From NCBI GenBank assembly GCA_036023115.1, contig JAYKKT010000046.1:5416001-5480000 (forward strand): 64,000 nt of DNA, in the 5' to 3' direction. Positions 5,521 through 43,154 of the stretch are shown here, one piece after another. The stretch comes from Brasenia schreberi. Lineage: Eukaryota; Streptophyta; Magnoliopsida; Nymphaeales; Cabombaceae. Made by a program: the position numbers and the translations under genes. The notes under the pieces are model-generated. The model saw only the letters and a program-made list of their open reading frames with translations, did no database searches and was not told the DNA's origin. The number at the start of each line of letters is the position of its first letter. The stretch's first letter is position 1.

Positions 5521-5998
5521 AGTAGTTTCTCGAGAGAGGAACTCGGTTTGTTTTCTTTCTAGACTATTTCACTGTATTACTTTTTTGTATCAGCTGCTTC
5601 GTTTAAATAGGCAGCATGCTCCCCCCTCTTCCCGCGTTTCTCTCCTGTGGCTTTTCTCGTCTGGAGTGTTATCTAGAGCATTACCAAAAATCTCGGTAAC
5701 ATCTTCTGGTTATGATATTTCCTTATCTAAGATACAGGTAACGGTATGGATCCAGTCCAGCCGTTACCTATGCTAGATGAGCCGAGAATGGTTAGATCAC
5801 ATCATCTCTCATTGGTCATTTGAGTCAAGTGTGCAAACATACTTGTTTCCTCCCACTCTTACACGATTTCTCTTAGTACTGTCTTTCCACGACCGCTACT
5901 GCAATCGATGCTCGTTGTATGGTTAATTTCTTACACAACAATTTATCCGTTGTATGGTTGTTTACCTATAATACTTTTATCCATTGTGTAGTTATTTT
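5521..5998. other. Unassigned spacer between two elements
   Basis: No gene is visible. Near 5920-6009 the motif of a copia LTR edge (CCTACACAACA on the plus strand) appears more than once in slightly different form. This suggests that the 3' LTR of the following minus-strand copia was rearranged or cut short here. The rest could be the lost 5' part of the L1. Confidence 0.3.
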
Positions 5999-6103
5999 CC
6001 TACACAACAATCAAATATACCTCAAACCCATGTTTGTAACATATTTTTAGAAAAGTTCATCTCTTATGCCTTTTGTCAAGGGGTCTGCCAACATATCATT
6101 TGT

Positions 6104-9063
6104 TTATGAGATGGATATTTTCTTTCTCATAACCATATCATGAACATAGTGGTATTTCACCATTATATGCTTGCTTTTTGAGCAATTAGCTCCACTCTTG
6201 ATAAGAGTAATTGCTGCATTGTTATCACAGTAAATAACAATTGACTCATCGGTTATTTCTAACTTCAAATCTTTTATAAAGTGGCTTATCCAGACAGCAC
6301 TCATTGCAGTCATACAGCAAGCTACATATTCAGTTTCCTGTGTATGCAATGCTACACAGCTCTGTTTCTTACATGCTCAAAAAACAACACCACCTCCAAA
6401 TAAGAATATTTGTCCCGAGGTTAATTTTCTCTCATCTTTGCTCCTAGCAAAGTCAGCGTCTGAGTATCCTACCACTTTCAATTCATCTGCTTGAAAACAT
6501 AGTTGCAAGTCTTTTGTTTCTTTCAGATATCTTAAAATCCTTTTCACAGCTACCTAGTGTTGCCAACCAGGATTACTTTGATATCTACTTACAAGACCAA
6601 AAATAAAGCTGATATCATGTCTTGTATACAATATAGCATACATCAAGCTATCAACAACTTGTGCATAAGAAACATTAGGCTTATCGTCTCCTTTACCGAG
6701 ACAATAGCCTTACTTAATTTGACCCCTTTTGCAACAGGTGTATCTGCAGACTTGCATTCACCTATTTTAAACTTCTTTAGGATATAGTCAATATATCTTT
6801 CCTGACTCAAGTATAAGAGTTTATATTCTCTATCTCAAGAGATCTTTATTCCCAAGATATAGGATTCTTCTCCCATATCCTTTATGTCGAACTTCGAGTT
6901 CAACCATGACTTGGTTTTGATAATCATCTCGTTGTCGTTTTCAGTTAACAATATGTCATCTATATATAATGACAAGATAACAAAGTGGCTTCCATTGTTC
7001 CAGACATATACACAGTGATCAAGTTTATTAGCCACAAACCTAAGTTCTATAATGGTATTTTGAAAAATCAAATACCATTGGCAAGGTGATTGTTTTAGGC
7101 CATATAGGGATTTTTTCAACCTATATGCTTTATCTTCTTGGCCTTCAACCATAAATCCTTCAGGCTGTTGCATATATATATGATTTCTTCTAAATCTCCA
7201 TTTAGAAAGGCTATCTTTATATCTAACTGATGTAAATCCAAATCATAATATGCATATATTGCTAGGATTATACGTATAGATGTAAATTTCGTAATTGGGG
7301 AATATATTTCAACATAATTTATCTCCTCTTTTTGCGAAAAACTTTTTACAACCAACCTCGCTTTATACTTGTCGATTGTACCATTGAACTTATATTTCTT
7401 TTTCAGAACCCATTTACAGCCTATGGCTTTCCTTCCTTTTGGCAAATCAGTCAATTCACAGACTTGGTTTTTCTCAATGGATTTAATTTCCTCATCCATG
7501 TCTTCTCCTAGTCTGTTGCTTTTAATGAGTTCATTGCTTGTTGATAAGTCAAGTTATTAGTCAACTCATCAAAATTCACCAAATTACATACTTCTTCTAC
7601 AAGATAAGTATGATAATCCTTTAAGTAGGACGGAGTGACTCTTGGCCTTTTATGTCCACTTAAGATATCGGTAGTTTCAAAAAGATCTTCAATGGACTCA
7701 AAAGATGATTGGTCTAAGTCTATCAAATCATCAACACATTCCTCATTGTTTTCAAGGATGTCATTCTTAGTATCTTCTAAGAATTCAATATCTCTGCTTT
7801 CAATGAGTCTGTGATCCTTATGATAAAACCGATATCCTTTTGAGCCTTTCGAATATCCAATGAATATACATCTCAAGGACCTATTGTTTAGCTTATCTCT
7901 AGACTAATCAAGGATTTTAACATGTGCAACAGACCTCCACCTCCTGAGATTACCTAGGATGGGTTTTCTTCCAAACCACATCTCATATGTGTAGTGAATA
8001 CAACTTTACATGGTACTCTATTGAGTATGTAAATCGCTGTACTTACTGTTTTTCTCCAAAATACTCTTGGAAGAGAGACATCAATCAATAATAACCTTGT
8101 CATATTCAACAAGGTTATGCTGTATCTTTCAGCTACACCATTTTGCTGAGGTGTCCTCGGCATTATATTTTACTTTGCAATACCAAAGTCTTTACAGAAT
8201 TCCAAAAATTCTACCGAGGTATATTTACCTCCTCTGTCTAATCTTAAGACTTTAATCGAATGTCCTAATTGGTTTTCCACTTCTTCTTTATATTCTTTAA
8301 AAGCATCAAGTGCCTCAAATTTATTTGTAAAAGATATAGATACATATATCTAGAGTAATCATCGATAAAGGTTATAAAATAACACTTTCTACGATGTGAC
8401 TTTACTCTAAAAGGTCTAAATAAATTTGTGTGAATAATCTCCAACAGGGTTGTTGCCCTTGTTGATTCTTTGGAAAAAAACTTTTCTTGTCATTTTTCCT
8501 TATATAAAAGCTTCACATTTGTTGAAAGTATTTTTCTCAAATCCAATCAATAAGTCAAAGTTGGATAATTTCCTCAACTTTTTCAAACTTGTATGCTCTA
8601 GGCATTTATGCCACATATTCACATCAACAATAAAGGGACTATTAATATAAGCAGAAGTTGTACCAATTTCATTATTAGAAAGCTTAAATAGTTCATGTTC
8701 TACATCCAATTCCCTAGAGAATAATATTCTCCCATGCTTTCCCACAGTCACCTTGTTAGAAATAAACCTAACCTCAAAACCTTTCTTTACCAAGGCAGGG
8801 ACCGAGACTAAATTGCGCCTTATAGATGGCACAATTAACACATTAGTCAATACAATTGGTTTGCCTTCAACAAATATTCTAAATGACTCAATACCCAAAA
8901 CATCCGAGAAAGTATTATTTCCTATGTAGACTCGATGTTCCCTGGGTTTGTATTCCTTCACATCCATTGCTCCTTCTTTGGTCTTTGAGATGTGTCGTGT
9001 AGCTCTTGAGTTTATCCACCAAACTATTACTGGGTGGTTCAAATACAAGCATTCTGAAATCAT
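6104..9063 (-). pseudogene. Copia pol relic (PR, IN, RT, RNase H)
   Basis: The minus strand carries, from high to low coordinates, these parts. The protease and gag-pre-integrase region is at 8500-9063, where the protease active-site DSGA has become NSRA and an LVSVPALVKKGFEV motif follows. The integrase C-terminal part is at 7954-8163 (TPQQNGVAERY, carrying the catalytic glutamate). A linker is at 7508-7876. The reverse transcriptase is at 6835-7499 (GCKWVLKKKYKFNGTIDKYK, LYGLKQSP, SLYIDDILL). RNase H is at 6104-6349 (TEYVACCMTAMSAVWI, YCDNNAAITL). The parts lie in several frames with stops between them, so no polyprotein can be made. Confidence 0.85.
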
Positions 9064-9415
9064 GCAGATTATGTCTTGCTTCTCTGATTGTCCGCGTTAT
9101 GGGTTGTTTCCTTCACCTTTTTTGTTGCGGCAGTCCCTTTTGTAATGTCTCATTTTTCAACAGTTGAAACACTTAACCCAAGAAGCGGTTTCTTTCGATT
9201 TCTTAAAATTTTGATCGCATTTCCTGTTATTCTTGCCAAACTTCTTATTTGGTTTTTTCTTTTGCTTGATTTTGGAGCTAAACACTATAAGCCGCCTTGC
9301 GAAAGACCCCCTCCTGGTAGAGCCAAAGGCAGCTATCGCTGTCTATTGCTAGTTTTAGGAGCAACTTAGAAAGGTTAATCTCAGGTCCTAATCTAAAAGC
9401 AGTGGTGTTCATGTT

Positions 9416-9916
9416 TCATGACGAGGATAGACTGTTTAGTATGATAGATATCTGCATCGGTTCCAGAAAGACTGATTTTACTACGGCTAAGTCCCTAGCC
9501 ATTACCAACATATGGTTTACATGCTCTACTATATTATCTTCTTCTTTCATTCTGAAGGAGTTATACTTTTGTAGTAACAACTGCACATGTAATTTTGCAA
9601 TTGTATCATACTTAGCTGTTATTGAGTCAAACAACTCTTTAGCGGTCTCGTATTCTTTGAAGACCCTAATCAAGTCATCCTCCATATAGGTCAATATGAT
9701 TGTCCTTGCTATAGTGTCGCCTTTTAGAAATGTTTTATATATTTCTACTTATTGCTCACTTGCGTATAGAAGTAGTGGACGCAAAGTTTTCTTCAAGACA
9801 TACTCAACACCTTCAAGTGTTAGAGCCAGTGAGATTCTCTTCTTCCATGTTTGGAAGTTAAGACTGTTCAACTTTTCAGTTTTTGCCAACTCAGATACAC
9901 ATATCATAGAGCTCAT
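9416..9916 (-). pseudogene. Copia gag relic
   Basis: A start codon at about 9916 on the minus strand opens a gag-like frame with LNSLNFQTWKKRISLAL, typical of the copia gag N-terminus. A second frame at 9416-9694 continues with DDLIRVFKEYETAKELF and KLHVQLLLQKYNSF (UBN2-type gag). A frameshift separates them near 9700-9750. This copy is the guide for recognising the two halves of the split copia further right. Confidence 0.75.
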
Positions 9917-10803
9917 TTTTATGTGTTTGGCAATAATAATAATTAAACGGTCTAAAAAAAAAACAAATATAAAACAAAGAGCACACATAGCAGGAATCAT
10001 GTTATAACGATGCATAATATCATAAAAATAAACTAACGATAATTTCATAAGCTCCTTAGGACAAATTTGAAATTTTTCCAAGGAATTTATGCCTTTATAC
10101 CCGTTAAACAATACCAAGGGCAGAACCATAATTTTAATTGTCTGTCCTCTTTTGATTTTTTTTTAAAAAGCCTAAGGACAAACTTGTAAAATTACTCTTT
10201 GGTATTTCTGTAAAATTCGTGACTGATCGGGGTTAAAACTGTAATTTTAACCCTCAGGCCGAAACTGTAAGTTTTTCAAAAGTATAGGGGCAATCCTGTC
10301 TTTGATTATATGATAGAACTGAAATTATCTCAACCGAGAGGGGCATAAATGTAAAACGATAGCTCAGTTTTTCGTAATTTTCACAAACCGCTAGAGGGTA
10401 AAACAAACTTTTTGCTTAGTAAGGGCAAAGTAGTCTTTTTACACAAAAATATCTAGACAATTCGATAATTTTGCCCAATGAAAAAATTGTAAATACTAAA
10501 AACCGACAGGGCAGAATAAACTTTTTAGTCCGCTGCCCCAGGCGGTTTTGGAAAACCGCCAGTTTCAGCTCAAGGTTTTCTGAAACCGCCTGGCGGTTTT
10601 GCAGCCTGGTATTTAAGGAGTGAGAATCTTAAAGGTAAAAGAGACAGGGGGAAGAGAGAGAGAAAGAGCGAGAGGGCGATCGTCCGCCGACCGCCGGTGT
10701 TTCCCTTGTTTTTTTTATGGGAGATTACAATGGGAGGGGAGAGAGAGAGGCTTTTGAGTTTTGGTAGTCCGCCTTCATGCCATTTAAGGTTTTGGCCGTT
10801 ACT

Positions 10804-19233: not shown

Positions 19234-19297
19234 GACGGTTTTTGATATATACATGCATACATACATATGTACATGCAACTATACACACACGTGCACA

Positions 19298-19412
<115 letters not shown>

Positions 19413-19905: not shown

Positions 19906-19915
19906 CTTATAAATG
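19906..19915 (+). promoter_or_regulatory. Putative TATA box of PME gene 2
   Basis: CTTATAAATG lies 64-73 bases upstream of the start codon at 19979, similar in spacing to PME gene 1. Confidence 0.5.
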
Positions 19916-19978
19916 TCATTCTTCCTCTTCACTCAAAATTCACACAAGCCAATCCCACAATTAACGCTTAATTAGACG

Positions 19979-26001: not shown

Positions 26002-26367
26002 TACATCACCAAAATCAGTAGCTGTGGTTATAAGTGATTTGACGTCGTACCATGCCGCTTGAAGGTTTCTGTGTGACGTTACTGGGTGGAAAAGTCTACT
26101 CGCTGATTGGCCTGCGGCAAAGCTGAGTCGTCATGGTGGTTTAACAAAGCAATTAATCCGACTTTGGACTATTTGACTTCTGATATTTTACATTACTATT
26201 TAGCCGGCATTTTCCTTAGAAAACTCCAAGTTCATTAAAATATCGCGTATTCTTTCTTCTTATCATTATGCATTATTCATGGTTCCTTATCTGGCGCAAT
26301 ACGCAATCTCAGAACAGAGAGAGAGAGAGACGGGGGGATGACGCACGCGCGTTCAATTTGACTTTTG

Positions 26368-27924
26368 ATGCCTACAAAGAAGCAAATATATTCAGATCGC
26401 GATGGTGTCCCTCGGTGGGTCAACAAGCACGTCTTCAGGTTTCATCATCATAAAAGGAGGATGGCTCTGCAGACTGCGGGCAGTGTGGTGGTTACTCAGG
26501 ATGGTAGCGGAGACTACCGCAGTATCAACCAGGCCGTTGCAGCTGCTCCTACTAATAACGACGGTAGCAAGGGTTTTTTCGTGATACAAGTAAAGGCGGG
26601 AGTGTACAAGGAGTATGTGACTATAGATAAAAAGAAGAAATACATAATGATGATCGGAGATGGCATCGGCAAGACCATCATCACCGGCAGCAAAAGCGTC
26701 GGTGGTGGATCCACCACTTTCAATTCTGCAACTCTTGGTGAGCGGCCTTGGTTCGGTTTCTATTTCCTTAGGTTCACGCAAACACACACACACATTTATT
26801 TATGCCGCCCGAACAACTAACTAATTATTCTATTTTTTTAATGTATAAATAACAAGCTAAAAAAGATCAAGACTCGTTAACTTTGGACCTCATCATAACA
26901 AGTATGTTTATAAGAACATATGTCAAAAGTCAACTTCAAGGTTCAAAATGATGCATATATGCGCTCACATATAAATATATTTATATATATCTGTTTGCAT
27001 GTGGGCGAGTGGCCCAGGGAACAAATTGACTACTTAAAATTTCTCGTGTATAGATGATAAGCTAAAAGGATTTAACAGTAGTTAACGTTGGGCCTCATTA
27101 TAACCGTGATATTTATAAGGCGTTTGTATCAACGATATATTTCAAGGTTTATATATATATAATCCAGCTAAAAATGTGGTTTATATGATGGAAATGTCAC
27201 ATACACGGGCACGCGCTGACACAAACATAAATTGAAGCTTAATTAGACGTGGTTTGTTTTGTCAGCGGTAGTAGGGGAAGACTTTGTTGCAATTGGCATC
27301 ACGGTGCGCAACACAGCTGGGCCATCGAATCATCAGGCAGTGGCTGTAAGGAGTGGCGCAGACCGTTCTGCTTTCTACAAATGCAGCTTTGAGGGATACC
27401 AAGACACTCTCTACCCCCACTCCCTCCGCCAATTCTACAGAGAGTGCGATATCTATGGCACCGTCGACTTTATCTTCGGAAACGCCGCCGTCGTCTTCCA
27501 GAACTGCAACATCTACGCCCGGCTGCCCAACCATGCCCAATTCAACACTTTGACGGCACAAGGCCGAACCGACCCGAACCAGAACACTGGCACCTCTATC
27601 ATGAACTGCAACATCCTTTCTACTCCTGAATTATCCAATAATTCTAACGTTAAGACGTTCCTTGGTAGGCCGTGGAAGCAGTACTCAAGAACCGTCTTCA
27701 TGCAATCCTATCTTGGTAGTTTGATCGACCCTGCCGACTGGTCCCCGTGGTTTGGCGACTTTGCTCTAAAAACGTTATACTACGGTGAGTATAGCAACCA
27801 GGGGCCTGGTGCTGATACTGGACGGAATTTCACATGGCCGGGATTTCATGTGATGACGGCAAAAATGCCAGGCGATAGCTCACCTGCCTTGGGAAAGGTA
27901 CCTAAAATATTCCTCTCCAAGTAA
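26368..27924 (+). pseudogene. Truncated PME lacking PMEI domain and C-terminus (PME gene 3)
   Basis: Exon 1 homology starts only at the linker before the pectinesterase domain (DGVPRWVNKHVF); there is no signal peptide and no PMEI domain upstream. The first ATG is 26368, donor G|GTGAGC after 26737, acceptor GTCAG ending 27265, and exon 2 runs from 27266. The frame stays open through GYQDTLYPHSLRQF, VDFIFGN and LGRPWKQY, so the catalytic residues are present. Homology stops at about 27864, after FHVMTAK. A SINE-like sequence (GATAGCTCACCTGCC) then follows and the frame ends at 27924, about 55 residues early. The 342-residue reading frame is therefore intact but lacks both ends. It is most likely a pseudogene. 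A GA-rich tract and (TA)n(GA)n lie upstream. Confidence 0.85.
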
Positions 27925-28234: not shown

Positions 28235-28397
28235 CTAGTTAGCTACATGGAGGCGCACCAATTTCTTGGCGGAGCTGTGGTCGGAGCCCTCCTGGGCGTG
28301 CCGCAGACTGTTGCCAAGCTTCCCCGCCGCATCCGAGTATCGAATCCTGCAGACACCGTAGGCCCTTCTGTAGCGCTCCTCGTTGTTGTTCAATATC
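28235..28397 (-). pseudogene. PMEI / invertase-inhibitor relic, 3' half
   Basis: Minus-strand frame with AYGVCRIRYSDAAGKL followed by NSLRHAQEGSDHSSAKKL. This resembles the second half of the PMEI domain, where a cysteine and tyrosine (C...Y..A...L) sit in helix 4-5. It is GC-richer than its surroundings. At 28392-28397 it meets the copia gag at the shared motif AATATC (GATATT on the minus strand). Its 5' half is found on the plus strand at 35037-35383, and the frames agree across the motif. The frame ends early (stop at 28235-28237), so the usual C-terminal helices are missing. The product would have inhibited PME or invertase in the apoplast or vacuole. Confidence 0.65.
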
Positions 28398-29580
28398 CTA
28401 ATTAGGCAATCCTCTATGTACATTAATATTATTGTTTTAGTTATGGTATCATCTCAAAGGAATGCTTTGTATGCATCATTTTCTTCTTATGAATGATGCA
28501 GTCAAACTAGGTGGTAGGATTGTATCCTTTAAAACATAATTTATATATTCAATTGTAAGTACTAAAGGGACACATCTTTTCCATAAAAGTTTAGATCATT
28601 CAGTTTTTTTGTTTTTGTCAACTCCGATATAGAAATTTTAGAGCTCATTTTAATTTGTTTGGTAAAAATAATAATAGGACGGTTTAAGAAAAAAGAAAAA
28701 ATAACCAACCACGTGTATTAGTAGACAATACTAGTTTACAACAATTTACAGATACTATTTGAAAAATTATGTCTAAGTACCTATGAGTATTTTCAGTTGA
28801 TACTTAGATATCAAATGAAAAAATTCTTAATTTGACTTTATTATTTTAGAATCAACCAATAGATGAATCTATAATCTTTCTTTTTATTTCATGCTACTGT
28901 AATTTCTTAAGAAACCTTAGGGGCAAACTAGAAATTTTACTCTTCTGTCCTGTTTTAAAATTTTTCAAAAAAACTCATGGCAGAATAGTAAAAACTCACC
29001 TGCTTTTCTTATAAAATGCATGAATGATTGAGGGTAAATTCATAATTATACCCTTTAGCTTGTTTTTAATTTTTTTTAAAAAGAAATGGGTGGTACTATT
29101 TTTTACGCAGTAGCAAATCTGTGAATTTTCAACCATATAGGGGTAACTTCATACTTTCATAGTATGGTATTTCATAAATTTCAAAAACTAGAAGAGGATA
29201 GTTTTTTCTTTTCATCGGATGAAATTATCTTTTTACTTAAAAATATCTAGGATTTTTATAATTTCATTTAGTGGCAGATTTGAAATTTTAAAGAATGCTA
29301 GGGGCAAAATAGACTTTTAAGCCCATTGCCCAAAACGATTTCTGGGAAACCGTCAGCGGTTTCGGCATCGATGGTTTTTCAATCGTGGTTTAAAAAACTG
29401 TTGAGCGGTTTTAAATGACAAGGAGGAGAGAGAGAAGGAGAGAGGTGCGGATAGGGGAGAGAGAGAAAGAGAGGGAGAGAGGCGATGGGGAGAGAGAGTA
29501 GAGGGGGAGAAGAGAGAGAGAGAGACAAGGGAGAGAGTTGGTCTTTCTAATGAGTTTGTCGCTCTCTTTCTCTTGCCGCT

Positions 29581-29724
29581 CTCCGCCTTCTCTTGCCTTT
29601 CACTGGGCTTATTGCTCCGCCTTCTTTTATCTTTCCCTGGGTTTACTGCTTCGCCTTCTCTTGCTTCTTGGCTAGGCTTACTATTTCGCTTTCTCTTGTC
29701 TTTGGTTGGGCTCAATGCTCTGCC
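29581..29724 (-). repeat. Copia leader minisatellite, 34-35-bp unit, 4 copies
   Basis: CTCCGCCTTCTCTTGC-like units start at 29581, 29615, 29649, 29684 and, in part, 29718. They lie between the GA-rich leader and the primer-binding site, at the place that corresponds to the array at 10804-10940. Confidence 0.7.
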
Positions 29725-29774
29725 TATTTTTTTTGTTGTTAATTTGACTGTTCTTATATGTAGGTTTTCGACAA

Positions 29775-29790
29775 CCTCACTATGATACCA
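29775..29790 (-). other. Copia primer-binding site
   Basis: The minus strand reads TGGTATCATAGTGAGG just after the LTR end (...GCAACA plus one base). This resembles the complement of the 3' end of initiator methionine tRNA (TGGTATCAGAGC), the usual copia primer. Confidence 0.8.
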
Positions 29791-29791
29791 G

Positions 29792-30215
29792 TGTTGCATC
29801 GAGATCGACATTGATGCTTGCGTGAATGCTGGAGTTTGCAGTGAAAGGTGTCGGAAGATGTGTAGAGTGAAAAAAAGAGAAGAAGAGAGAATGAGAGGGG
29901 TTGTTTACACCTTTCCCGCAGACGGCTCAGTTTCCAGCATACGACTTTCTCATGAAAGATTTCTCTTTTTCGATTTGTGTATATCTATATTTTTCTTGAT
30001 CCTACTCTCTTCGGTATTTATGGAGAGTGATCACGATTTCATCTTTTTGAATTACTCATTTCAGCTTTTTGTTACATGTCGTTTTTCTAATTTTTTAATG
30101 TATACATTTTAAATCTTTTATACCTTTTGTATATCTTTTGTATATGTAACTTTTTTGCTCGGATTTATAGGCGAGAATGGTCATATTATGCGTTAGAGAG
30201 AAACCTTAAAATTCA
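29792..30215 (-). repeat. 5' LTR of the split copia (partial)
   Basis: The reverse complement matches 38791-39271 along most of its length, for example ATCGTGATCACTCTC before the TATA box (CATAAATACC) and AATATGACCATTCT near its 5' side. The outer 60 or so bases are not recognisable, so the 5' end is estimated. Confidence 0.75.
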
Positions 30216-31063
30216 TTTGAAATATCATTTTCATTAGATCAGTCCAAGTTGCTTGTTAATCATCTGTGCTTTTTCTATTTTTGTTGGAGATTTTACCAAT
30301 AACGGTATATTATGGCTATGGGTGACCCAGAGCATTGATAATGCAATAGAAATCCTATCAGTGTCTTGATTCTTTCTGGTGTAACCGCCATTAATGGGTG
30401 GCAGTGTCACAAATAGCACGACGGATTACAGTTAAACCCAGCCTGGCTGACCTCGAGTAAGATCCATATTTTCTATGAAACATAGCAAAACAATCTGAAG
30501 GAATGATCTCTAAGATCACACTAGGAGGTATAGCTACAAATTGTTTGAGTGCCAAGACCGGCCGTTACGGCAGAAGTGAGGGGCTGCCCTTTATTCCCGG
30601 AGATTTGCTCAACTCTCTATTATGGCACCCGTGCATATCAAAACGGATAAAACCGGCAATTTTTGGATTTTAATCTACAATCCTTGACATTGTAATCTCA
30701 ATGCTCATGATCACACTCCACCGACCTCCCCACTTTTGGAGCGTCCATCTCAGAGGATATTATCAGAGAGAGAGAGAGTTGTCTCTGGTACGGAGGTATG
30801 AAAAAGAGAGAGAAAGAGAGAGGAGCAAGCTTTCTCCTTGCATTGTTATATTTTGCTTCATGCAGGAGATCAGGCCAGGCACCAACTTCATTGTGAGATT
30901 TGATTCATCAAGAAAGACGCAGCAGGAAAGGTGGCTTTTCCTTCAGATATACGTGATTTTGATCCAAAGGTAAGAGTGCCCAGTTTTGTTCATGTGCAAT
31001 TGAGTGCAAACCAACAAGGACACAAAAAATTCTATTGGTCCTTGTAAATAAAAGGCAGGAAAA
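30216..31063. other. 5' flank of PME gene 4
   Basis: No gene is recognised. GA-rich tracts lie at 30762-30775 and 30803-30820. An acceptor-like CATGCAG (ending about 30866) and a donor-like AAAG|GTAAGA (about 30969) frame a 100-base segment that could be a 5'-UTR exon of PME gene 4; this is a guess. No convincing TATA box is near the start codon. Confidence 0.3.
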
Positions 31064-33414
31064 ATGATTATGGATGACATAGACAATTTGGCGAAGAAAA
31101 AGAATATCAGGTGGAGGAGGATATGTTTCTGTTTCTTCTCCATCATATTCATGGCTGCAGCAGGAATTGGCATTGCCTCGGCCGTCGTGGGAGCAAATAG
31201 AAGCCATGACACCAACGACGAGGACGATCAAAATGGCTCATCTTCAGACTCAATCTCTACGATATGTGCAGAGACAGATTATAAGGACGAATGCATCGCT
31301 GGCCTATCAACAGCATTACTTTATGATTCATCTGTTGGCCGTCCAATGGAATTGATAAAGACAACATTTGGGCTCACAATCTATGAACTAGAAAAAGCAT
31401 TGAATCTTACCATTGAAGCTGCTTCAACCCAGAAGAATTCAACTGATTCCATGAAACTTCAGTCTCTTATTGATTGTCGAGAACTCCTACAATATGCTAT
31501 CGAGGAGCTTCAAGATTGTATGAATGCCATCTCTTCGATTGATCTTAAAGAACTTCCAAATCGAAGAGATGATCTTAGGAATTGGTTAGGAGCTGTCTTG
31601 TCCTACCAAAGTTCATGTGTTGATGGCCTAAGGTATGACCCAATGAACACAACCATTCAGAATGGAGTTATCAATGCTACAAAGCTCACTAGCAATACTC
31701 TTGCTATAGTTACGGAGATCACATCAATTCTCACCAATCTTCACTCTGGTTCGAAGTTGAGCCGTAAACTCACTGAGAACGATGAAAAAATTCCGTGCCT
31801 TGATCACCAACAAGATAGAACAGGCTACCCATCCTGGTTTGAATTGAGATACAGAAAGCTCATAGTTCTGCATGATTCAGGCAAAGTGACACCAAATGCT
31901 GTGGTAGCCAAGGATGGAAGCGGGCAATTCATAACGATATCTGCAGCCCTTGAAGCAATGACTTCACAGTACGAAGGTAGTAGGTATGTGATTTATGTAA
32001 AAGAAGGCATTTATGAAGAGCAAGTCATTGTGACAAAGAAGATGAAGAACGTTCTGATGTATGGTGATGGACCAAGGAAGACTATCGTCACCTGTCACAA
32101 AAATTTTGTGGATGGAACAACCACCTACCAGACGGCTACATTTGGTAAGTACTTTAGGATTATATTTTCCATATAAACATGGGTGAAACTGCACGCTAAT
32201 ACACTCTCAATCAAAAGCTATTTTAGCAGTAACTCTTGGTCAGTTCAAGTGGTTTGACACTTGTTCCCCTCAAGCAATTCTCGAGTTCGAGTCTTGTGAA
32301 TGGAGCAAATCAGCGCTGAAAGAGCTTTACCCCTGCAGTGGGCCGACCCGGCTCTTAGTCAGGGTCCTTTAGGCTCCCGGATACCAGCAATGCGCTTCAC
32401 AAAAAAAGAAAACTATTTTAACAGCTCCATCAGATCTCTGCAAAGCTAGCTGTTTCATTACTCTGTCTAGGGGATCTTTATGTCAAACGATGGATCAGGC
32501 TGTCACACCAAACTCTTCCGGGAAATTTAGTTATTTCCCTCTGTTTGCAATTGTATTAACAAGTTAAGAATATTCAGAAGCAGCATCCCCTTGTTCATTC
32601 ACTTAATACAAGGAAAGAATTTCCAAGAAACCACGTTATTCACTTCCTCTGTTTTGGACTAGCAAGTTCAAATATCATCTGAAACATATTCTCATTTATT
32701 GGCTTTGGCATTTCAGCGGCAATTGGTGATGGCTTCATCGCGAAGTCAATGGGATTCCGGAACACAGCAGGGGCAGCAAAGAACCAATCAGTTGCCCTTA
32801 GGGTGCAATCAGACAAGTCTGCTTTCTTTGATTGTCTAATAGATGGGTTCCAAAACACTCTTCATGCACAAGCCCATCGCCAATTCTACAAAAACTGCGT
32901 TATCTCAGGCACAAGAGACTTCATCTTCGGTGACTCTGCTACATTTCTGCAAAACTGCACCATTTTTGTTAAAAGACCAATGGATCATCAACAGAACACA
33001 ATCACAGCTCAAGCAAGGAGTGACAAGAGAAGCCCAACGGGAATAATTATACAGAATTGCCAAATTGTGCCACATGCTAAGCACTCGCCGGTTAGATCGA
33101 ATACACCCACGTATCTAGGCCGTCCCTTGAAGCAGTACTCAAGATCAGTGGTGATGGAATCAAATTTAGGTGAATTGATCAACCCACAAGGATGGATTTC
33201 TTTAGATGGTAGCTTTGCTTTGGACACATTATTCTTTGCGGAGTATGGAAACAAGGGGCCTGGTGCTGACACTAGTAAAAGGGTGAGATGGAAAGGTTAC
33301 AAAGTGATCACCAGCAGATCAGAGGCACTTAATTATACAGCTGGTAACTTCATTCAAGGTGGACAGTGGCTGAAGAGAGTTGGAATACCTTATGTGCTTG
33401 GCTTACTCAACTGA
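31064..33414 (+). CDS. Divergent PME-like protein, catalytic Asp replaced (PME gene 4)
   Basis: Exons 31064-32144 and 32717-33414 encode 592 residues; donor G|GTAAGT, acceptor TTTCAG, phase 1 at the family position. The N-terminus is basic (KKKNIRWRR) and then hydrophobic (about 20-43), so it is more a signal anchor than a simple signal peptide. PMEI cysteines are C68, C77, C138 and C185. A basic RKL processing-like site is at 234-236. The pectinesterase domain spans about 278-592 and reaches the normal C-terminus. Two key residues differ: the usual QDTL aspartate is asparagine (N407 in DGFQNTLH), and the tryptophan of LGRPW is leucine (L498 in LGRPLKQY). Q384, Q406, D428 (RDFIFG) and R496 are kept. 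The open frame without stops suggests selection. It may be a weak or inactive PME, or act through its PMEI part. It lies within the inverted block. Confidence 0.9.
32230..32412 (+). mobile_element. SINE with target-site duplication, in PME gene 4 intron
   Basis: A 183-base unit has a box-A-like TGGTCAGTTCAAGTGG near its start, a box-B-like GAGTTCGAGTC, a GC-rich tRNA-unrelated body and an A-rich tail. Direct repeats flank it: CTATTTTAGCAG (32218-32229) and CTATTTTAACAG (32413-32424), 11 of 12 identical. These are the marks of a SINE inserted by LINE machinery. Confidence 0.85.
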
Positions 33415-33995
33415 TATTATGTGATCATTCATTTGGGGTTTTGGTGGTTCATAAATGGGAAGAAAGCTGTATATGGCGTAGAGGTGAAGGAGGTTTTCAC
33501 TGGACTGCACAAAGAGCAATAGCTCACCTGACTAGGGGATCGACTCTGAAGGTCACGAACTCGATACCTGGATTCGGCCTTACTGTCGGAGCAAAGAAAA
33601 GGTTTTCATTTTCACGATGCTGACAAGTCCTCAAGATCATTAGAAGCTCAAATATGTTCTGTATATGACCTTGCTATAGGGAGCCTGTGCATCAATATGA
33701 GAGCGATATTGTCAAACATTGCTGTATACCCTATCCTTATGTAAATGAGGCAGATGACACTGTATATATGTTTCTCATTTCATTGTGACGCTCATTGTCT
33801 CGTAACGGTTTGACCATATTAGCACTATAGAATAGGAGGTGAGCACAAAAAGCACTAACCTGGCTAGGGGTCAATATGCAACTTGGAGGTCATGAGTTTG
33901 ATACCTGGGATGTGCATCTGGATTCAGCCTCCCTATTATACCAAAGAAGATATAGAGAAAGTAACAGGTGTAAGGGTTTCTCATCATCATCTTTG
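33415..33995 (+). mobile_element. Two related SINE-like copies downstream of PME gene 4
   Basis: Segments at about 33505-33612 and 33835-33960 share an order of motifs. They are GCACAAAGAGCA, then CACCTGACTAGGGG or AACCTGGCTAGGGG, then a box-B-like GGTCACGAACTCGATACC or GGTCATGAGTTTGATACC, then a GGATTCAGCC-type segment. They differ from the intronic SINE. No clear target-site duplications were found, so the boundaries are approximate. Confidence 0.5.
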
Positions 33996-34530
33996 ATGCA
34001 TCTAAGAAAACTAAGATTCTTAGTTTTGTTCTCTCTATATTTAGTTATCCTAAAAATATATCTTTTACATTTTTTTTAGTTAAGCTTTTTATATAAATTC
34101 TTTCAAATTTCAGCTTTTACTTCACTAACGGCCTTTTTAGTTTCTTTCTTTGCTTTCTTATAAATGTCTCAAGTTTCACTAGCCTTCTTGGCATAATGCA
34201 ATTTGTAACATGACTTTTTGTTTTGATTTTATTTTGCACCACTTCACTCCATCACGAAGTTTCTTTTTGTACCGGTATGCCTCTCTTAGATTCGTCTAAT
34301 ATATCTTTTGCCACTTCTCTAATATGTATAAATATATTGTTACACATATCATAAGGTAGGTGTACCTACTTAATTTCAAGCATCTCCTTTAAGAATTTTT
34401 TATTTAAATATATCTTCTTCCCTACCGTCTAGTCTGAATAACTCTATGCATATATTATTCTTTATCCACTTTTTACTATTAAAAGTAGAGGTTGAGTTAT
34501 TAAGCTTTTTATTGAAATTACCTTGTAATA
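33996..34530 (-). mobile_element. RTE-clade LINE fragment
   Basis: The plus-strand sequence matches 61190-61730, the minus-oriented RTE copy, over about 530 bases with moderate divergence. For example, CACTAACGGCCTTTTTAG here corresponds to CACTAACGGCCTTTTTCG there. It covers only the segment between endonuclease and reverse transcriptase and is truncated at both ends. Confidence 0.8.
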
Positions 34531-35036
34531 CGAGAGAGATACAAAATCAATCAATTGGTTGCTTTTATTGCAAATGGCCCTAGAGGCTGAAGTTTTTTGG
34601 ATAAAAGTGGGGTTACATCATGTGATCTGAGACATCATGATCTAGCACCATAGCGCTTCATTCATGTCATGAAGATATAACAAGAATAATGAAGTTTCGG
34701 GTTCAGACCACAAACTACGACGCCACTTGATCCATGGACACGATCTATTAATGAAGCCCCCATTACAGGCTTAGTTTAGCGTAGACGATCTATCGTGATC
34801 TGAGAGTCATGTTTAGGTTAGAGTAGACGACGATCAATTCAAATCTACAAAATAGGAAAACCAAGCATATGCATTGCGTTCACTTGGTCCACATTTAAAC
34901 AACCACACCTAGAATTCATGGCCAAGACCCAAAAATAACTTTCACTTGGTCTCTATTTAAACAACCCGAATGCCTCTCATTCATGCATTAATAAGAGCCT
35001 CTGTCACAAAGAAAGGTCGTCTAAGTTGATTGCAGC
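34531..35036. other. 5' flank of the PMEI relic
   Basis: No gene. Two similar stretches, CACTTGGTCCACATTTAAAC (34910-34925 region) and CACTTGGTCTCTATTTAAAC (about 34950), contain ATTTAAA and lie 80-130 bases before the PMEI start, where a promoter would be expected. Confidence 0.3.
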
Positions 35037-35383
35037 ATGAATTCAGCAAGGTTTCAGAACTCTCTCGGACTCAAGCTATGCCTCCTCTATCTCTTCATCC
35101 TCTGCACCTTCTTCCCCGCAGAGGCGTTGCCCAGGCGAGGTATACCATCCCGGCCACGCCTAGGATGGCGAAGTTTGCAGGAAAAACCAAACCAATCTAA
35201 ACGATACACGCATTGATCTTGTATGCTCAAAAACACGGTTCTATAAACTCTGCATTAGACTCTCACTACCGACCCCCGGCACGCGACCGGTGCCGACACT
35301 GCCACTCTGGTCGTCACGGCCATAAAATCGACTATGGAGAAGGCCAGGTAGACGTCTCTTCTCATAGGCAGTAGGCTGATATT
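35037..35383 (+). pseudogene. PMEI / invertase-inhibitor relic, 5' half
   Basis: ATG at 35037 opens a signal-peptide-like start (KLCLLYLFILCTFFPAEA, cleavage about residue 30). In the +1 frame follows LVCSKTRFYKLCIRLS (about 35218-35265), the first cysteine pair of a PMEI domain with the usual eight residues between them. Back in the first frame comes TTDPRHATGADTATLVV and STMEKA (35265-35345), matching the DPR...AD...A helix of the family. So two compensating frameshifts have broken the gene, and a TAG follows at 35347-35349. At 35378-35383 (GATATT) it stops and copia gag begins. The missing 3' half lies at 28235-28397 on the minus strand. Taken alone the first frame would give a 59-residue secreted peptide, but the PMEI remains explain it better. 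Confidence 0.75.
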
Positions 35384-37497
35384 CGAAGAATACAAGATAA
35401 CAAAAGAGTTGTTTTATTCAATAACAACTAAATACGATATTACACCTAAACTACATGTTCAGTTACTACTACAAAAATATAACTCCTACAAAATAAAAGG
35501 AAATAATATAGTAAAACATTTGAACCAAATGTTGGTAATGGCAAGGGACTTAAGATTAGGAAGAGAAACAAACTTTTTTGAGTTACCCTTAAAACTACCA
35601 ATTGAACAAAACCACATGAATACAAATAAAAGAATAAGTTGCTAGTAGCTGAAGAAGAGATCGAAACAAACTCTAGACCAAACCAAAAAAAGAATAAACT
35701 AAATAAAAAGTTTAATAAGAATAATAAGAAAGACGATCAAACTTTTAAGAAATCATAGGAAATTGTTTCTCGTATCAAGTGCTTCAACTATGGGAAGATA
35801 GGGCAACGTGGTCAATCAGAGAAGCAGGACATAATTTGCATGGTTTTATAATGCCTCTACATATATCGTCCAATATCTGGTTGGTGGATTGACTCTAGAA
35901 CAACAAGATATTAGGCCGAAAGGAATATAAATCAGGAGAACATAAGGTGTATATAGAAAATAACACATTTTCAGATATCCTTGATATGGGGTCCTTTAAG
36001 ATTTATATAGAAGGCATGTCGATTGTTTTAACTGATGTATTAATTGTGTCAAATATAAAGCATAATTTGATCTCCGTTCCTGCATTGGTTAAGAAAGGTT
36101 TTGAAGTCAAGTTGGTCCTTCACAAAGTAATCATAGGAAAACATGAAATGATAGCCTTTTCAGAATTGTTCGATAATAAACAAGGTTTGTTCAAATTAAA
36201 TGAAAGAGAAGGATTTTTCTACTTATGCCAATTGTGCTTTTAATATTGATGTGAATGTATGACATAGACTCCTAAGATATATAAGTCTGAAAATGTAGAG
36301 AAAATTATCCGACTTTAACTTATTTCTAGTTTTTCAGAAAAACACCTTTGCTAAATGTGACAAGAAAATATTTACTAAGGAGATAACAAGGGCAACAATC
36401 CTATTAGAAATCATTCACACTGATTTATGTAAACATTTTAGGACAAGAACTTAACGTGAAAAGGCATATTTCATAACATTTATCAATGATTACTCGAAAT
36501 ATAAATCTCTCTTGGTACATAAATTTGAAGCACTTGAAGCATTCAAAAAATATAAGTAGAAAGTTAATCAATTGGGGTATATAATCATAGTCTTGAGATC
36601 GGATAGAGGTAGTAAATATATCTCTACATAAATTCTAGAATTCTATAAAAACTATGATATTTTAAAGCAAAATACAATGCACATAACACCTCAACAAGAT
36701 AGTATAGTAGAAAGATATAATATGACCTTACTGAATATGATTAGGTCCATGTTAATAGACGCATCTTTGACAAGGGTATTTTGAAGAGAAATAGTAAATA
36801 CAACTGTGTATATTCTAAACAGAATACCATGTAAAGTTGTATTCTTTATGCCATATGAGATGTGGTTTGGAAGAAAATCCAACATAAGTCATCTCAGGAG
36901 GTGGGGATCTATCACTCATGTGAAAATCTAAGATTAGTGCAACGATAAGCTAGACAACGGATCCTTAAGATGTATATTCATTGAATATCCTAAAGGTTCA
37001 AAAGTATATTATTTTTATCACAAAGATCATGGACTGATAGAGAGTAAAGATATTGAATTTTTAGAAGATACTAAGAATGACATCTTTGAAAATAATGATA
37101 AATATATTGATGATCTAGTAGATTTAGATCAATCATCATTTGAACCTATTGAAGATCTTCCTAAAACAACCAAAACTTTAAGTTGACATAAAAGGCCTAG
37201 GATTGCATCATCCTACTTAAAGGATTATCATATTTATCTTACTCAAGAAGTATGCAATTTAGTAGATTTAGATAAGTTGACTGATAACTTGACTTATCAA
37301 CAGATTATTGACTCATCTGAATCAACATACTAGGAGAAAGTCATGGACGAGAAGATTGAATCCATTGAGAAAAAATAAGTCTGGAAGTTGGCTGATTTGT
37401 CAAGAGGAAGAAAAAGTCATAGGCTACAAGTATGTTCTGAAAAAGAAATATAAAGTCGATGGATCAATCGACAAGTTTAAAGCGAGATTAGTTGCAA

Positions 37498-37650
37498 AGC
37501 CCGAAGGATCTATTATTTGTAAAAAATATTTTCTTAAATGTAAACTTATATAAAATCATATATATGTAACAACCTGAAGGATCTATTATTTGTAAAAAAT
37601 ATTTTCTTAAATATAAATTTATATAAAATCATATATATGTAACAACCTGA
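37498..37650 (+). repeat. 76-bp tandem duplication in copia RT
   Basis: The stretch from GAAGGATCTATTATTTG to ATATATGTAACAACCT occurs twice in a row with only a few differences (about 37500-37573 and 37574-37648). It interrupts the RT frame just before the KAYRLKKSLYGLKQSP-like region. Confidence 0.85.
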
Positions 37651-38110
37651 AGGATATAGAATTGAAGGCCAAGAAGATAAAGTATATAGGCTGAAAAAAT
37701 ACTTATATAGTCTTAAAGAGTCACCTCATTAATGATATTTGACCTTTCAAAATCTCATTATTAATCATGGATTTGTAACCCATGAACTTGACCACTATGT
37801 ATATATCAGGAACAACAGGTGTTCCTTTGTCATCTTATCATTATATGTAGATGACATATTGTTGATTGGAAATGATAATGAGATGATTATCAAAACCAAG
37901 TCATGGTTAAACTCAAGGTTTGAAATGAAGGATATGGGGAAAGCATCATATATCCTGGTTATAAAGATTTCTCGAGATAAAAAATCTAAACTTTTATGCA
38001 TAAGTCTGGAGAGATATATTGATTATATCCTCAAAATGTCTAAAATGGGTGAATGAAAGTCTGTATCATTGCAAAAAGGATAAAACTTTGCAAGACTGAT
38101 TGTCCCAATA

Positions 38111-38788
38111 AATATATATAAAACTTATGTTTGTAACATGCTTTGAGAAAAGATCTTTTGTTATGCCTTTAGTTAAGGGGTCTGCTAACATATCATCTTT
38201 TGGGATATATAAGATAGATATTTCCTTTCTTATAACTATATCATGAACATAGTGGTATTTTAACCATTATATGCTTGTTTTTGGAGTTATCAATTCCACT
38301 CTTAATTAGAGTAATTATTGCATTGTTGTCACAATAAATGACAACTAGCTTGTTGGCTATATCTAGCTTCAAATCACGTATGAAGCGGTTTATCCAAACA
38401 ACACTAATTGCAATCATACAACAAGTCATATACTCAACTTCCTATGTACACAATGCTACACATCTCTGTTTTTTGCATACCCAAGAAACAACTTCACCTC
38501 CAAATAAGAATATTTGTCGTGAGGTTGTTTTGCTGTCATTTTTGTTTCCAACAAAGTTAGTGTCTGATTATCCCACCACTTTTAGTTCATATGCTTGAAA
38601 ACACAATTTCAAGTCATTTGTTCCTTTAAGATATTTTAAAATCCTTTTCAAAACTATCCAATGTTGCCATATAGGATTACTTTGATATCGGTTTAGAAGA
38701 TCAACAACGAAGCTAATATCAGGTCTTGTACATAACATAGCATACATCAAGCTACTCATAGCTTATGCATAAAGAATGTTAGGCTTTG
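38111..38788 (-). repeat. Inverted RNase H/3' end inside the split copia
   Basis: RNase H motifs (AISVVWINRFIRDLKL, YCDNNAIITLIKSG) and the preceding RT-connection motif (MYAMLCTRPDISFVVDLLNR) read on the minus strand. The rest of the element and its 3' LTR read on the plus strand. The segment matches 6015-6680 of the minus-strand copia, base order preserved. One junction is after CCCAATAA (38110) and the other directly before the LTR edge (38788). Confidence 0.88.
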
Positions 38789-38790
38789 AT

Positions 38791-39271
38791 TGTTGTGTAG
38801 GTAAAAAACACACACAAAAGGTAATGATTGAAATAACAATCATACATGAAAAGTGAGAGGTAAAATCAATATGTCAAGATACGAGGCTTGAATGGCCAAG
38901 TGAGAGATGTAACACTGAATATGACCATTCTTGATTGTAAATCAGAGAAAAAGTGTTACATATACAAAACATATACAAGATTTAAAACATATATGTTAAA
39001 AAAGAGGGAAAATAATATGTAATGGAAAGCCCAAACAAGTAAACGAGGAAGATGAAGTCGTGATCACTCTCTATAAATACTGAAGAAAGTAAGATCAAGA
39101 AAATATAGATATACAGAAATCAAAAAAGAGAAATCTTCCTCAAGAAAGCTGTGTGTAGGAAATTGTGTAAACAATCCCTCTCATTCTCTCTTCTTCCCTT
39201 TTTTTACTCTCGAGATCTTCAACGCCTTCCGCTGCAAACTCCGATATTCATACAAGCATCAACGTCCAACA
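38791..39271 (+). repeat. 3' LTR of the split copia
   Basis: 481 bases begin TGTTGTGTAGG and end ...GTCCAACA, so they have TG...CA ends with a TGTTG/CAACA inverted repeat. A TATA box (CTATAAATAC) is at 39071-39080. It matches the partial 5' LTR at 29792-30215. Confidence 0.85.
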
Positions 39272-39907
39272 TTCTGTGTACCAAAGCTTAGCTTATCTCA
39301 CACTAAGTGCTACGTGACAAGGGTGTGGATGCTGGATACGGAAATTTAAAAACCGCGGTTGCAAAAACACACACACCGTATATTATGATTGAGAATTTTT
39401 CGTAAAAACTAAAAGGTAAGGTCTTAACTTTCATAAGTTATTAATTGACATAGAAATAGATTCGTATTCTATGAATTCTGTTCTTGACATGATACAAATT
39501 TCTTCGGAAGTTAAGCTTTCTAATTAAAGTATTTAAAATAGTTACTACTGTACTCGATAGGCTCTCGGTGAAAGAATCAAGTGTGATAGTCTGCCGGTGG
39601 ATTCTTAAATTCTACTGTACTCGATACTGTTATATTAAAATTTGTCTAAAATGCATTCTTTATGCAACTGTAATATGTTGTAATGCTGCTCATATATTAT
39701 TCCCCATCTCACCGTTGGGAATGGGATATGGGATGTGCAGAATGCATGGTCCCATACGACAACTTCTAATATGGAATCTGAATCCAATTAATAGACTACG
39801 GCCACAAGGAGTTACGATTCCCCTGGTTACGCGGCGACTCGAAATAACTTCGTCTTGAAGGTTTTGAGTATGACACAGTTACCTGGCGTGTTCGGGTCTG
39901 CCAAATC

Positions 39908-39968
<61 letters not shown>

Positions 39969-40668
39969 TATATATATATATATATATATGTCCTACCACT
40001 ATTGAGGCTTTCCACTCATGCCCGATGGTTATTTTTTTTGGAGCATGAGATACGTATTTTCCCAAAAGCTCTTAAAGCTTTTTAAAACAGCAGGAAGGCT
40101 AATCAAGGGTTGTGATTTCAGAACTGTTTACTTATTTTCGTTCACTGTATTATGAGAACCAACTGCTTTGGGGATGAGAGACGAAGCCTGGGGAATATGA
40201 GGTGCAGCTGGCCCAAGTGAGTTAACATAGGAGAGTATAGTCAAGCTCGGATTAGCTCGGCCTTACTCTTTTAAGAAGTGATCAGCCTAGCCCAGCTTGC
40301 CAATCGGACAAGACAAAATTGAAATATAAAGAAAATCAGAATTAGCTGGACTTGGAGGAAAAATTAAGATAAGAGCACCACAATGACATTTTACATATGG
40401 AGGACTTGCAATCCTTTGAACAATTCAGTTCTTATAACCACAATATGACAAACAGGAGATCAAATTTATTGCTGCGTAGAACAATCTAATCAAATACATA
40501 ACGAATCATTGAACAAAACCTATGAAGGCCTCCTCTCTTTAACTTGGGGACAAATAAAGAATGAAATTAAGTTCCTTATTTCAACAAAACTAAAGAATGG
40601 ACGGATTTAATGGTGGTAGTCTTATAATTACCACCCTTCTTTTATGCTTCTCTTCCCCTTCGAGGAAA
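39272..40668. other. Intergenic between copia and PME gene 5
   Basis: No gene recognised. It contains a (CT)n(TA)n microsatellite (39907-39988). A TTTATT at about 40466 could act as the polyadenylation signal of PME gene 5 on the minus strand. Confidence 0.35.
39907..39988. repeat. (CT)n(TA)n compound microsatellite
   Basis: About 58 bases of CT repeats followed by about 20 bases of TA repeats. Confidence 0.95.
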
Positions 40669-42406
40669 TTAGGCTGTGAAGGGCACAGTAGTCTTCGGCA
40701 GCCAAACATCTCCTTGCACGAAATCGGAAAGAGTGAAGGCACTAGCATCTTTTGCAGTCATGACATGAAATCCAGTCCATTTAACTCTTCCAGTAGTGGC
40801 CGCGCCAGCGCCGCGGTTGCTATACTCACCGTAATATAACGTGCTAAGTGCAAAGTTACCGGACCAAGGCGTCCAGCCGGCAGGGTCGATCAAGCCACCC
40901 AGATTGGATTGCATGAACACAGTTCTTGAGTATTCCCTCCATGGCCTTCCCAGATACGTCTTGACACTTGAAGTGCGCCCGGCGAGATCAGCAGCGGCCG
41001 CGATGTTGCAATTGATTATGGAAATGCCGGTGTTCTGGTTCGGATCACTTCTGCCTTGTGCCGTCAAGGTGTTGAACTGTCCGCTGTTAGGCAGCCTGGC
41101 GTAGATATTGCAGTTCTGGAAGACGACGGCCGCGTTGCCGAATATGAAGTCGACCGTGCCGTAGATGTCGCATTCTCTGTAAAATTGGCGGAGTGAGTGG
41201 GTGTAAAGAGTGTCTTGGTATCCCTCGAAGCTGCATTTGTAGAAGGCGGAGAGGTCTGCGCCGTTCCTCATTGCCACCGCTTGGTGCTTGGCTGCGCCGG
41301 CTGTGTTGCGGACCGTGAAGCCAATACCAACAAATCCTTCTCCAAGTACAGCTGCGAAAAAGATAAGGAGCCTTTTAGTACTTTTCCACGGCAACACAAG
41401 ATAACATTATATATATGCGTGTGCGTGCGCGTGTTGAGAGAGAGAGGGGTCGCTCACCTAGAGTTGCAGAATTGAAAGTGGTGGAGCCACCAACAACGCT
41501 TTTGCTGCCAGTGATGATGGTCTTGCCGATCCCGTCTCCGACCATCATTATATACTTCTTTTTCTTGTCTATGGTCACATACTCTTGGTAGACTCCTGCT
41601 TTCACGTTGATGAGGTAGTAACCCTTGCTACCGTCGTTGGTGGTAGGAGCAGCAGCGATGGCCTCATTGATGGTGCGGTACTTTCCAGTACCGTCCTGCG
41701 CTACCACCACACTGCCCACCGTCTGCAAAGCCATCCTTCTCTTCTCTGCAGACCGGAAGATGCGCTTGTCAACCCACTGCGGTACACCATCGGCCCCGAC
41801 TCTAACCCCGTCCAGCAACTGACGGCCCAGCTTGGTGGCCTTGCTGTTCTTGAAGGGCTTAGAGTGGGTGAGCATGGCCAGGGATACACTATACAGCTGA
41901 GTTCCATTAACCAATGGTGCATAGAGCTTATGACCGCGTTGGAGGAAGTTAGCCTGGGTGAGCCCATCCAAGCAAGTCTGCTGGTTGGTGACTATGCCGC
42001 TCATAAGGGTCTGGACTAACTCGGCTTGGTCAACAGGCACGGTGGTGTTGCCGTTGGAGTTGAGGGTGGATAAGGAAGACAGCAGGAAGTCTGTGGATAA
42101 CTGAGAAAGAAGGAAGCAGTCACCGAGCGCACCCGATGCTTGTTGAGGAAGGGAGGCATTGTCTCTCATGGTTTGGTCTATGAGGGACGAAAACCTAGAG
42201 GATTGAACCAGGGACTTCCTGACGAGGTATTTTCCATAGTTATAGAGATTAGAGAGTGACTGAGTGGGCAATACGGACTTACAGAAGGAGGGATCGGTGG
42301 TCACATTACATGCATTTTCCGGCGTGACCGCAGGCGAAGTGATATTCTGTGAGAAAGAGGAAGAGAAGAGCAGAGAAAGGAAGGTGATGAAGGTGACTAG
42401 CATCAT
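40669..42406 (-). CDS. Pectin methylesterase with PMEI pro-domain (PME gene 5)
   Basis: On the minus strand, exon 1 is 42406-41458 and exon 2 is 41351-40669, giving 543 residues. The 106-base intron has GTGAGC and CGCAG ends at the conserved phase-1 site. A signal peptide covers about 1-19. PMEI cysteines are C33, C42, C97 and C145. RQLL (195-198) is a typical subtilase processing site before the pectinesterase domain, which begins at about 232. Q340, Q362, D363 (GYQDTLY), D384 (DFIFG), R452 and W454 (LGRPW) are complete, so it should be catalytically active on pectin. Two ATGs are adjacent at the start; the first is used here. It is a close relative of PME genes 2 and 3 but in opposite orientation. 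Confidence 0.94.
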
Positions 42407-42462
42407 CGTATACTTATTGTTCGGCTTGGAGTTTGTATGTGTTAGACGAAGGTGGCAAGGGT

Positions 42463-42472
42463 TATTTATATA
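42463..42472 (-). promoter_or_regulatory. Putative TATA box of PME gene 5
   Basis: The minus strand reads TATATAAATA, 57-66 bases before the start codon at 42406, the same spacing as in PME genes 1 and 2. Confidence 0.55.
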
Positions 42473-43154
42473 TGATGGGGATGTACGAGTGTGGTGTTTT
42501 ACTTTATATATATGTATTGTTTATTGACAAGAGAGAAAATGATTCAACAGTTGAACTTTCAATGCCTTGCCGCACCCTCACTCTCGCCTTCTCTTCGTAA
42601 CGTGGACCAAATGTAGCTCAGCCGGAACCACCTAGGAACGTAGGTCTAGTATAACGCGGTTTACTCACATTCTAATTCTGTGGTTATTTGGATATTCACT
42701 CTGTTATTGACCATCAAGGTTCGTGCTGCTTGTGGTTTGGCTATGTACTGAGCTCATTTTTGTGTAACTATTTATTTTTACAAGCATTAATTATGTATAT
42801 ATATTAAAAAGCCATGTCAATATACCCAATTGGTTGCACATGGATGTACAATCTAATGATCAAATGTATTTTCAGCGAAAACCAGTTAAGGAAAGATGGA
42901 TTTGTGGCATTTGCTTGTGAAGACTTCAACGTTTGGTTCAGGCTAAGCTTGATTCACAAGCCACAAACAGCCTTTGCTCGGCTCGAGCAGCTTGATTACG
43001 ACTTGTGGTGGGAACTTATTGACCTGTACTATTGGCTCCTCACCGACTCGGTTTGAGATTTCCTCCCCAGCTAGTTTCAAGAAACAAGATGCCATTTGCA
43101 CAGAGCCTCTGACTGCATTAAATAATGTTGGAGTCAACAAGTGCTCCAACCCAA

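Follow-up and report, generated by a model that had tools for sequence, protein, structure and literature searches.

A simple inversion of about 7 kb very probably split a PMEI gene and a copia retrotransposon in a pectin-methylesterase cluster of Brasenia schreberi

The 64,000-nucleotide stretch of the Brasenia schreberi genome analysed here (the window; contig JAYKKT010000046.1, hereafter C46, positions 5416001-5480000) contains a cluster of pectin-methylesterase (PME) genes in which a PMEI gene and a copia retrotransposon are both broken. We attribute this, with a probability of roughly 0.95, to a simple inversion with two breaks, about 7 kb long, in the C46 copy of the cluster. The inverted block (28397..35378, ~6.98 kb, no strand assigned) carries a PME gene that we call gene 4, the 5' part of the retrotransposon (copia copy 2) and the N half of the PMEI gene. 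Its inversion, as proposed in a sequence-only reading of the window, accounts for both broken sequences, and a second copy of the cluster, on contig C60, keeps the uninverted order on both sides; that the block was flipped is almost certain. PME clusters on contigs C57 and C60 were found by a search of the genome (1,055,133,615 bases, 92 contigs), and 90 kb of each were compared with the window (18 stretches). As collinear copies that are 5–9% diverged, they are read here as putative homoeologues.

The two junctions of the block are reciprocal, with the same two parent sequences swapped, which is the signature of an inversion with two breaks. Both were placed from the letter strings, by comparison with C60 and by a register count. 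At the left junction (28392..28397, minus strand) the 5' part of the copia gag passes into the C half of the PMEI gene, and at the right junction (35378..35383, plus strand) the N half of the PMEI gene passes into the 3' part of gag. The sequence-only reading had given these coordinates, and GATATT at both of them, exactly; on the left the motif lies on the minus strand, where the plus-strand letters are AATATC. Its translations could also be reproduced: in the minus frame the left junction reads ...EDCLIRI and then LNNNEERYRRAYGV..., so that gag ends in LIRI, and in the plus frame the right junction reads ...TSLLIGSRLI and then FEEYKITKELF.... The same reading had suggested aligning the junctions to uninterrupted copia and PMEI copies, and in gap-free counts against such copies (copia copy 1, a copia element on C57 and the C60 PMEI) the similarity switches at the junctions. 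Copia copy 1 (5951..10680, minus strand), which is uninterrupted at the gag site, lies outside the inversion and served only as a yardstick. When base 9665 of this copy was aligned with the first base of GATATT and 40 bases were counted on each side without gaps, the left piece matched it at 28/40 positions before GATATT and 13/40 after, and the right piece at 14/40 before and 32/40 after. The C57 copia gave nearly the same figures in the same register (left piece, 28/40 and 12/40; right piece, 13/40 and 32/40). In BLAST comparisons of the window with itself, 28397-29486 aligned with 9665-10680 of copy 1, and 35382-35581 with 9661-9462. The queries used there were cut at or near the junctions; uncut gapped alignments ran weakly on past them. 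Searches with 28397-31100 and 35379-40200 gave no match at the opposite junction at E values up to 1e-3 (31101-35378 was not among the queries), and therefore no long inverted repeat there drove the inversion.

On the PMEI side, the uninverted copy is unbroken in C60. The C half (28240..28391, minus strand) is cut short, having lost 134 bp compared with C60, and window positions 28255-28391 align in plus orientation to C60:13674618-13674754 (92.7% identity over 137 columns). The N half (35037..35377, plus strand) lies within window positions 34805-35390, which align in minus orientation to C60:13675342-13674752, and the two halves meet in C60 at the predicted point. At the junction the C60 PMEI agrees with the window at 36/40 positions on the N side and, once shifted by 3 bases, at 37/40 on the C side; both halves are ~7% diverged from C60. 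Of the broken sequences, the PMEI halves alone were physically joined in silico, and the product scored 48.6 bits with Pfam family PF04043 over profile positions 3-101, compared with 31.1 bits for the N half alone, 31.9 for the present right junction and 31.2-34.0 for all eight shuffled tails. The present left junction had no PF04043 match and the C half alone no Pfam match. An alignment with 1xg2_B, which we take to be the kiwi PMEI, spans the join. The joined score and the adjoining halves in C60 bear out the claim that reversing the block also joins the two PMEI parts on the minus strand. That the join stays in frame holds locally, across GATATT, but not for the PMEI sequence as a whole, which is not open: relative to C60 it has one +1 indel, one -1 indel, a CAG to TAG change and the 134-bp loss near the 3' end, with the two frameshifts and the stop falling in the N half. 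The C60 PMEI has an open frame throughout and covers PF04043 positions 3-156; the window copy, reaching only profile positions 3-101, has no full inhibitor domain in an open frame and is a decayed pseudogene. A protein database search with the joined PMEI yielded no homologue at E values up to 0.001 (20 candidates), so that the intact relative came only from the same genome.

Reversal of the block also restores a single ordered copia element, as had been claimed. The 5' long terminal repeat (LTR; 29792..30197, minus strand, 406 bp) now lies inside the block and the 3' LTR (38908..39271, plus strand, 364 bp) outside it, in opposite orientations, and the two align at 82.3% identity over 362 columns. 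The 5' LTR is adjoined by a primer binding site, TGGTATCA (29783..29790, minus strand), presumably of the tRNA-Met type, and the 3' LTR is preceded by GGCCAAGTGAGAGA (38894..38907, plus strand), which resembles a polypurine tract. The target site duplications (TSDs) are TTCTC (30198..30202, minus strand) at the 5' end and TTCTG (39272..39276, plus strand) at the 3' end, agreeing at four of five bases. LTR pair, primer site, polypurine tract and short TSD, one base of which differs, are those of a Ty1/copia element. The leader and 5' part of gag lie inside the block (28397..29782, minus strand); the remaining gag and pol, with many stops, lie outside it (35383..38907, plus strand), where BLAST against copy 1 and the domains Pol_BBD, SH3_retrovirus and RVT_2, in copia order, identify them. 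These domains were found in unmended fragments of copy 2, three of five of which match a retroelement family; the other two matched only unrelated families, below the cut-off. An integrase core was not found in copy 2, for which no search was aimed at one, the gag pieces had no convincing Pfam match, and a gag stretch of copy 1 had no homologue in the protein database (2 candidates). Copy 2 is a dead copia retrotransposon. It also contains an internal inversion of ~0.66 kb near the end of pol (38125..38784, minus strand, ends approximate): 38106-38786 matches 6008-6682 of copy 1 in the reverse sense to the rest, the sense returns at ~38785, and a few bases are doubled or lost at the ends.

The order before the inversion is preserved in C60. 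PME3 lies left of the PMEI there, as in the window. A second piece of C60, read in reverse, carries window positions 43342-40086, 40085-39583 in pieces and 39338-39272, and then directly 30194-31075 and gene 4. At this point C60 has one TTCTC and no copia, and the outer LTR flanks at 39272 and 30198 are directly joined; the flank now at 30198 therefore adjoined 39272 before the copia insertion and the block inversion. The copia side of the uninverted order is represented in C60 only by this empty site. C60 has a break of its own at about window 33795/33798, with complementary halves on its two sides, which implies that the ancestral block had no break at this point either. The sequence-only reading had named an ancestral present order as a possible refutation; with an uninverted PMEI and an empty copia site in C60, the window order is instead the derived one.

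These observations suggest the following history. The ancestral order would have been PME3 (+), PMEI (-), gene 4 (-) and PME5 (-). The empty C60 site shows that the copia element, which went in at TTCTC ~0.87 kb upstream of gene 4, was inserted in C46 but not in C60; on the simplest reading this happened after C46 and C60 diverged, unless the insertion was sorted as an old allele. Later, one break in the PMEI and one in the copia gag, which we infer from the observed junctions and C60 order, would have allowed the intervening piece to be rejoined in reverse. The inversion cuts the copia and is therefore later than its insertion. The ends would have been sealed by end-joining that used little homology or none, GATATT being a microhomology of 6 bases or else a short scar copied during fill-in from the copia side. 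The outcome would be a split PMEI, now a pseudogene, a split copia, and a gene 4 turned round with its coding sequence open; the inversion and the PMEI decay may have come in either order.

Several points weigh against this account. The inversion is known here from assembled sequence alone, and single reads might still show an assembly join. C60 is itself rearranged, and the ancestral order was assembled from two of its pieces ~347 kb apart, with 13746001-14014000 between them outside the stretches compared. C57 is uninformative, since PME3, PMEI, gene 4 and the copy 2 copia are all absent from the 90 kb compared. A PMEI profile of our own, built from the N-terminal parts of pectinesterases (110 of the 120 PME proteins fetched), scores the window PMEI weakly and gives the join 23.7 bits versus 19.3 for the N half, a gain of only 4.4 bits. 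GATATT is present in none of the three unbroken relatives (C60 PMEI, copia copy 1 and C57 copia). Finally, the Kimura two-parameter (K2P) distance of the LTR pair, 0.207, exceeds that between C46 and C60 (0.052-0.089 across the flanks, an intron and the genes compared) although the C60 site is empty, so the dating must be wrong unless the LTRs mutate ~2.3-4 times faster. More rapid change in the copia element is the likely reason for the excess. Transitions in CG/CHG contexts made up 20 of 46 in the LTR pair versus 14 of 32 in the flank pair, with no clear LTR excess, and methylation is therefore not shown to be the cause of the LTR divergence.

A block oriented wrongly in the assembly is conceivable in a genome with many similar copies and with junctions known only from the assembly. 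We nevertheless consider it very improbable: the window contains no N, the exchange at the two junctions is reciprocal and falls within the same 6 bases, with PMEI gene sequence as one parent, and the PMEI halves are ~7% diverged from C60 and so are not C60 pieces. When scaffolding goes wrong, gaps or long repeats are normally involved. Ectopic recombination between inverted transposon copies might be entertained as one breakpoint does lie within a copia, and according to the excerpted text of a rice study Ty1-copia elements are commoner at inversion breakpoints than in resampled controls (PMC10030860). Its probability here is close to nil, however, given that the PMEI breakpoint shows PMEI up to the junction, at the 36/40 and 37/40 matches with C60 given above, with no second transposon, and that the two nearly identical TSDs are those of a single element. 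It was rejected, chimeric element copies with exchanged TSDs having not been found at both block ends.

For the two-break inversion, the manner of joining can be narrowed to two alternatives, a microhomology and a repair scar, which we hold about even. The window contains 35 copies of GATATT and 25 of AATATC, so the 6-mer alone means little. The C60 PMEI reads GTCATT and then GAAGAAC where the window reads GATATT and then GAAC, and the gag site is GGTCTT in both copia copy 1 and the C57 copia; GTCATT and GGTCTT are each 4/6 like GATATT. The shared GATATT of the sequence-only reading is thus confirmed as present at both junctions, but as a pre-existing microhomology it is not established, given the three relatives that lack it. 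Microhomology-mediated joining, with GATATT in both parent sites before the breaks, has in our estimate slightly less than an even chance. The identity of the 6-mer at both junctions speaks for it, as at least six matching breakpoint bases occur in only 0.2-0.3% of random inverted pairs, and the sister copias are so well diverged from copy 2 (28/40 and 32/40 beside the junction) that their GGTCTT is compatible with GATATT in copy 2; the GTCATT of the C60 PMEI, on the other hand, demands two adjacent changes exactly there (the probability of at least 2 of 6 at 7.2% divergence is 0.065). End-joining, in which fill-in of a short staggered break in the copia left a few of its bases at both junctions while a few PMEI bases were lost, could equally well be right or wrong. 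It requires no earlier PMEI substitutions, GTCATT and GATATT having G and ATT in common, and only two doubled copia bases and two lost PMEI bases would suffice; inverted duplications from staggered breaks, on the kb scale, are described for Drosophila inversions in the excerpted text of PMC3355041. The doubled stretch would however be tiny, and the extra 3-base GAA difference from C60 beside the left junction has no unique explanation.

Gene 4, carried by the block, consists of two plus-strand exons with splice sites read from the sequence: exon 1 (31064..32144) encodes the PMEI domain and the start of the pectinesterase (PF04043, 93.7 bits; PF01095, 92.7 bits) and exon 2 (32717..33414) the remaining pectinesterase, giving a spliced protein of 592 aa. 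Among the 120 matches listed of 1546, its closest relatives were from Nymphaea thermarum (63% identity) and Victoria cruziana (61%). The ancestral order in C60 has gene 4 turned the other way, in agreement with the suggestion that the inversion changed its orientation and surroundings. The C46 gene is open over its 592 codons. Its C60 counterpart (C60:14022969-14025297) is broken: tblastn recovered it as five pieces in shifting frames, one shift being the intron and one piece containing a stop, and residues 104-111 and 522-553 were left uncovered. A tblastn search with gene 4 in the 90 kb of C57 found only other PMEs, the best at 49% identity. There appears to have been reciprocal loss between the copies, C46 keeping gene 4 and C60 the PMEI. 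The block is flanked on the left by PME3 (26365..27924, plus strand), of which window 26398-27871 aligns in plus orientation to C60:13671758-13673258, and on the right, past the copia, by PME5 (40669..42406, minus strand), where window 40086-42929 corresponds to C57:7220603-7223448 and 43342-40086 to C60:14017592-14020847. Further left, a recent tandem duplication of PME sequence (17942-19170 and 20992-22251) is 97-99% identical, with a spacing of ~3.05-3.08 kb.

The other copies of the cluster carry inversions as well. In C57, window 15037-20010, about 5 kb, is reversed (C57:7216519-7220343 versus window 14679-20040), with 14680-15036 (357 bp) and 20011-20039 (29 bp) missing and 9 bases added at the breakpoints. 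One break lies in PME1 and the other at the beginning of PME2, and most of the PMEI part of PME1 is lost, which suggests that C57 is probably the derived copy. C60 has an apparent inversion of its own of ~349 kb (C60:13676482-14025681), one break of which lies immediately downstream of gene 4; it is deduced from the orientation of the two C60 pieces and from both ends falling at window 33795 and 33798, and spans the uncompared 13746001-14014000. A target duplication at its ends was looked for by eye and none was seen. Repeats of the family found at 56-62 kb of the window adjoin both of these ends. In the window this family forms a near-palindrome (56431-62151) with arms at 57338-59625 and 59937-62151, several pieces of which are 95-98% complementary, and ~0.3 kb between them; it has relatives in C57 and C60 and looks like a mobile element family. 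Four inversions are thus found in or around one cluster across three copies (7 kb in C46, 0.66 kb within copia copy 2, and those of C57 and C60). That inversions strike the PME/PMEI cluster repeatedly, with an independent inversion in each of three homoeologous copies and reciprocal loss of PMEI in C46 and gene 4 in C60, is a tentative and rather doubtful proposition. The hot spot is a lead only; if the clustering is true, the cluster would be a place to test why tandem gene arrays are broken again and again.

The cluster provides a worked case, within one genome, of duplication followed by copia insertion and then by inversion and gene decay, whichever of these two came first, and shows how homoeologues of one PME cluster ended up keeping different members. 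The inversion is of an ordinary, known kind. In the excerpted text of the rice inversion index, clear inverted repeats longer than 10 bp were absent from the breakpoints of 59 of the 100 inversions sampled (PMC10030860). The rice pan-genome inversions of that excerpt resemble ours in having Ty1-copia at one breakpoint, whereas here a single inversion is resolved almost to single bases by comparing homoeologues within one genome, and its direction is given by the empty site of a transposon. The inversions of Drosophila mojavensis, attributed to staggered breaks and non-homologous end joining in the excerpt of PMC3355041, likewise have a short sequence at both junctions and joining without long homology, but the duplicated segments there measure 1 to several kb and here at most 6 bases. 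In polyploid Brassica napus, the corresponding excerpt (PMC12599057) describes LTR Copia and Gypsy elements as common in inversions and at their breakpoints; it is a population-scale survey of structural variation, in contrast to the base-level reconstruction presented here.

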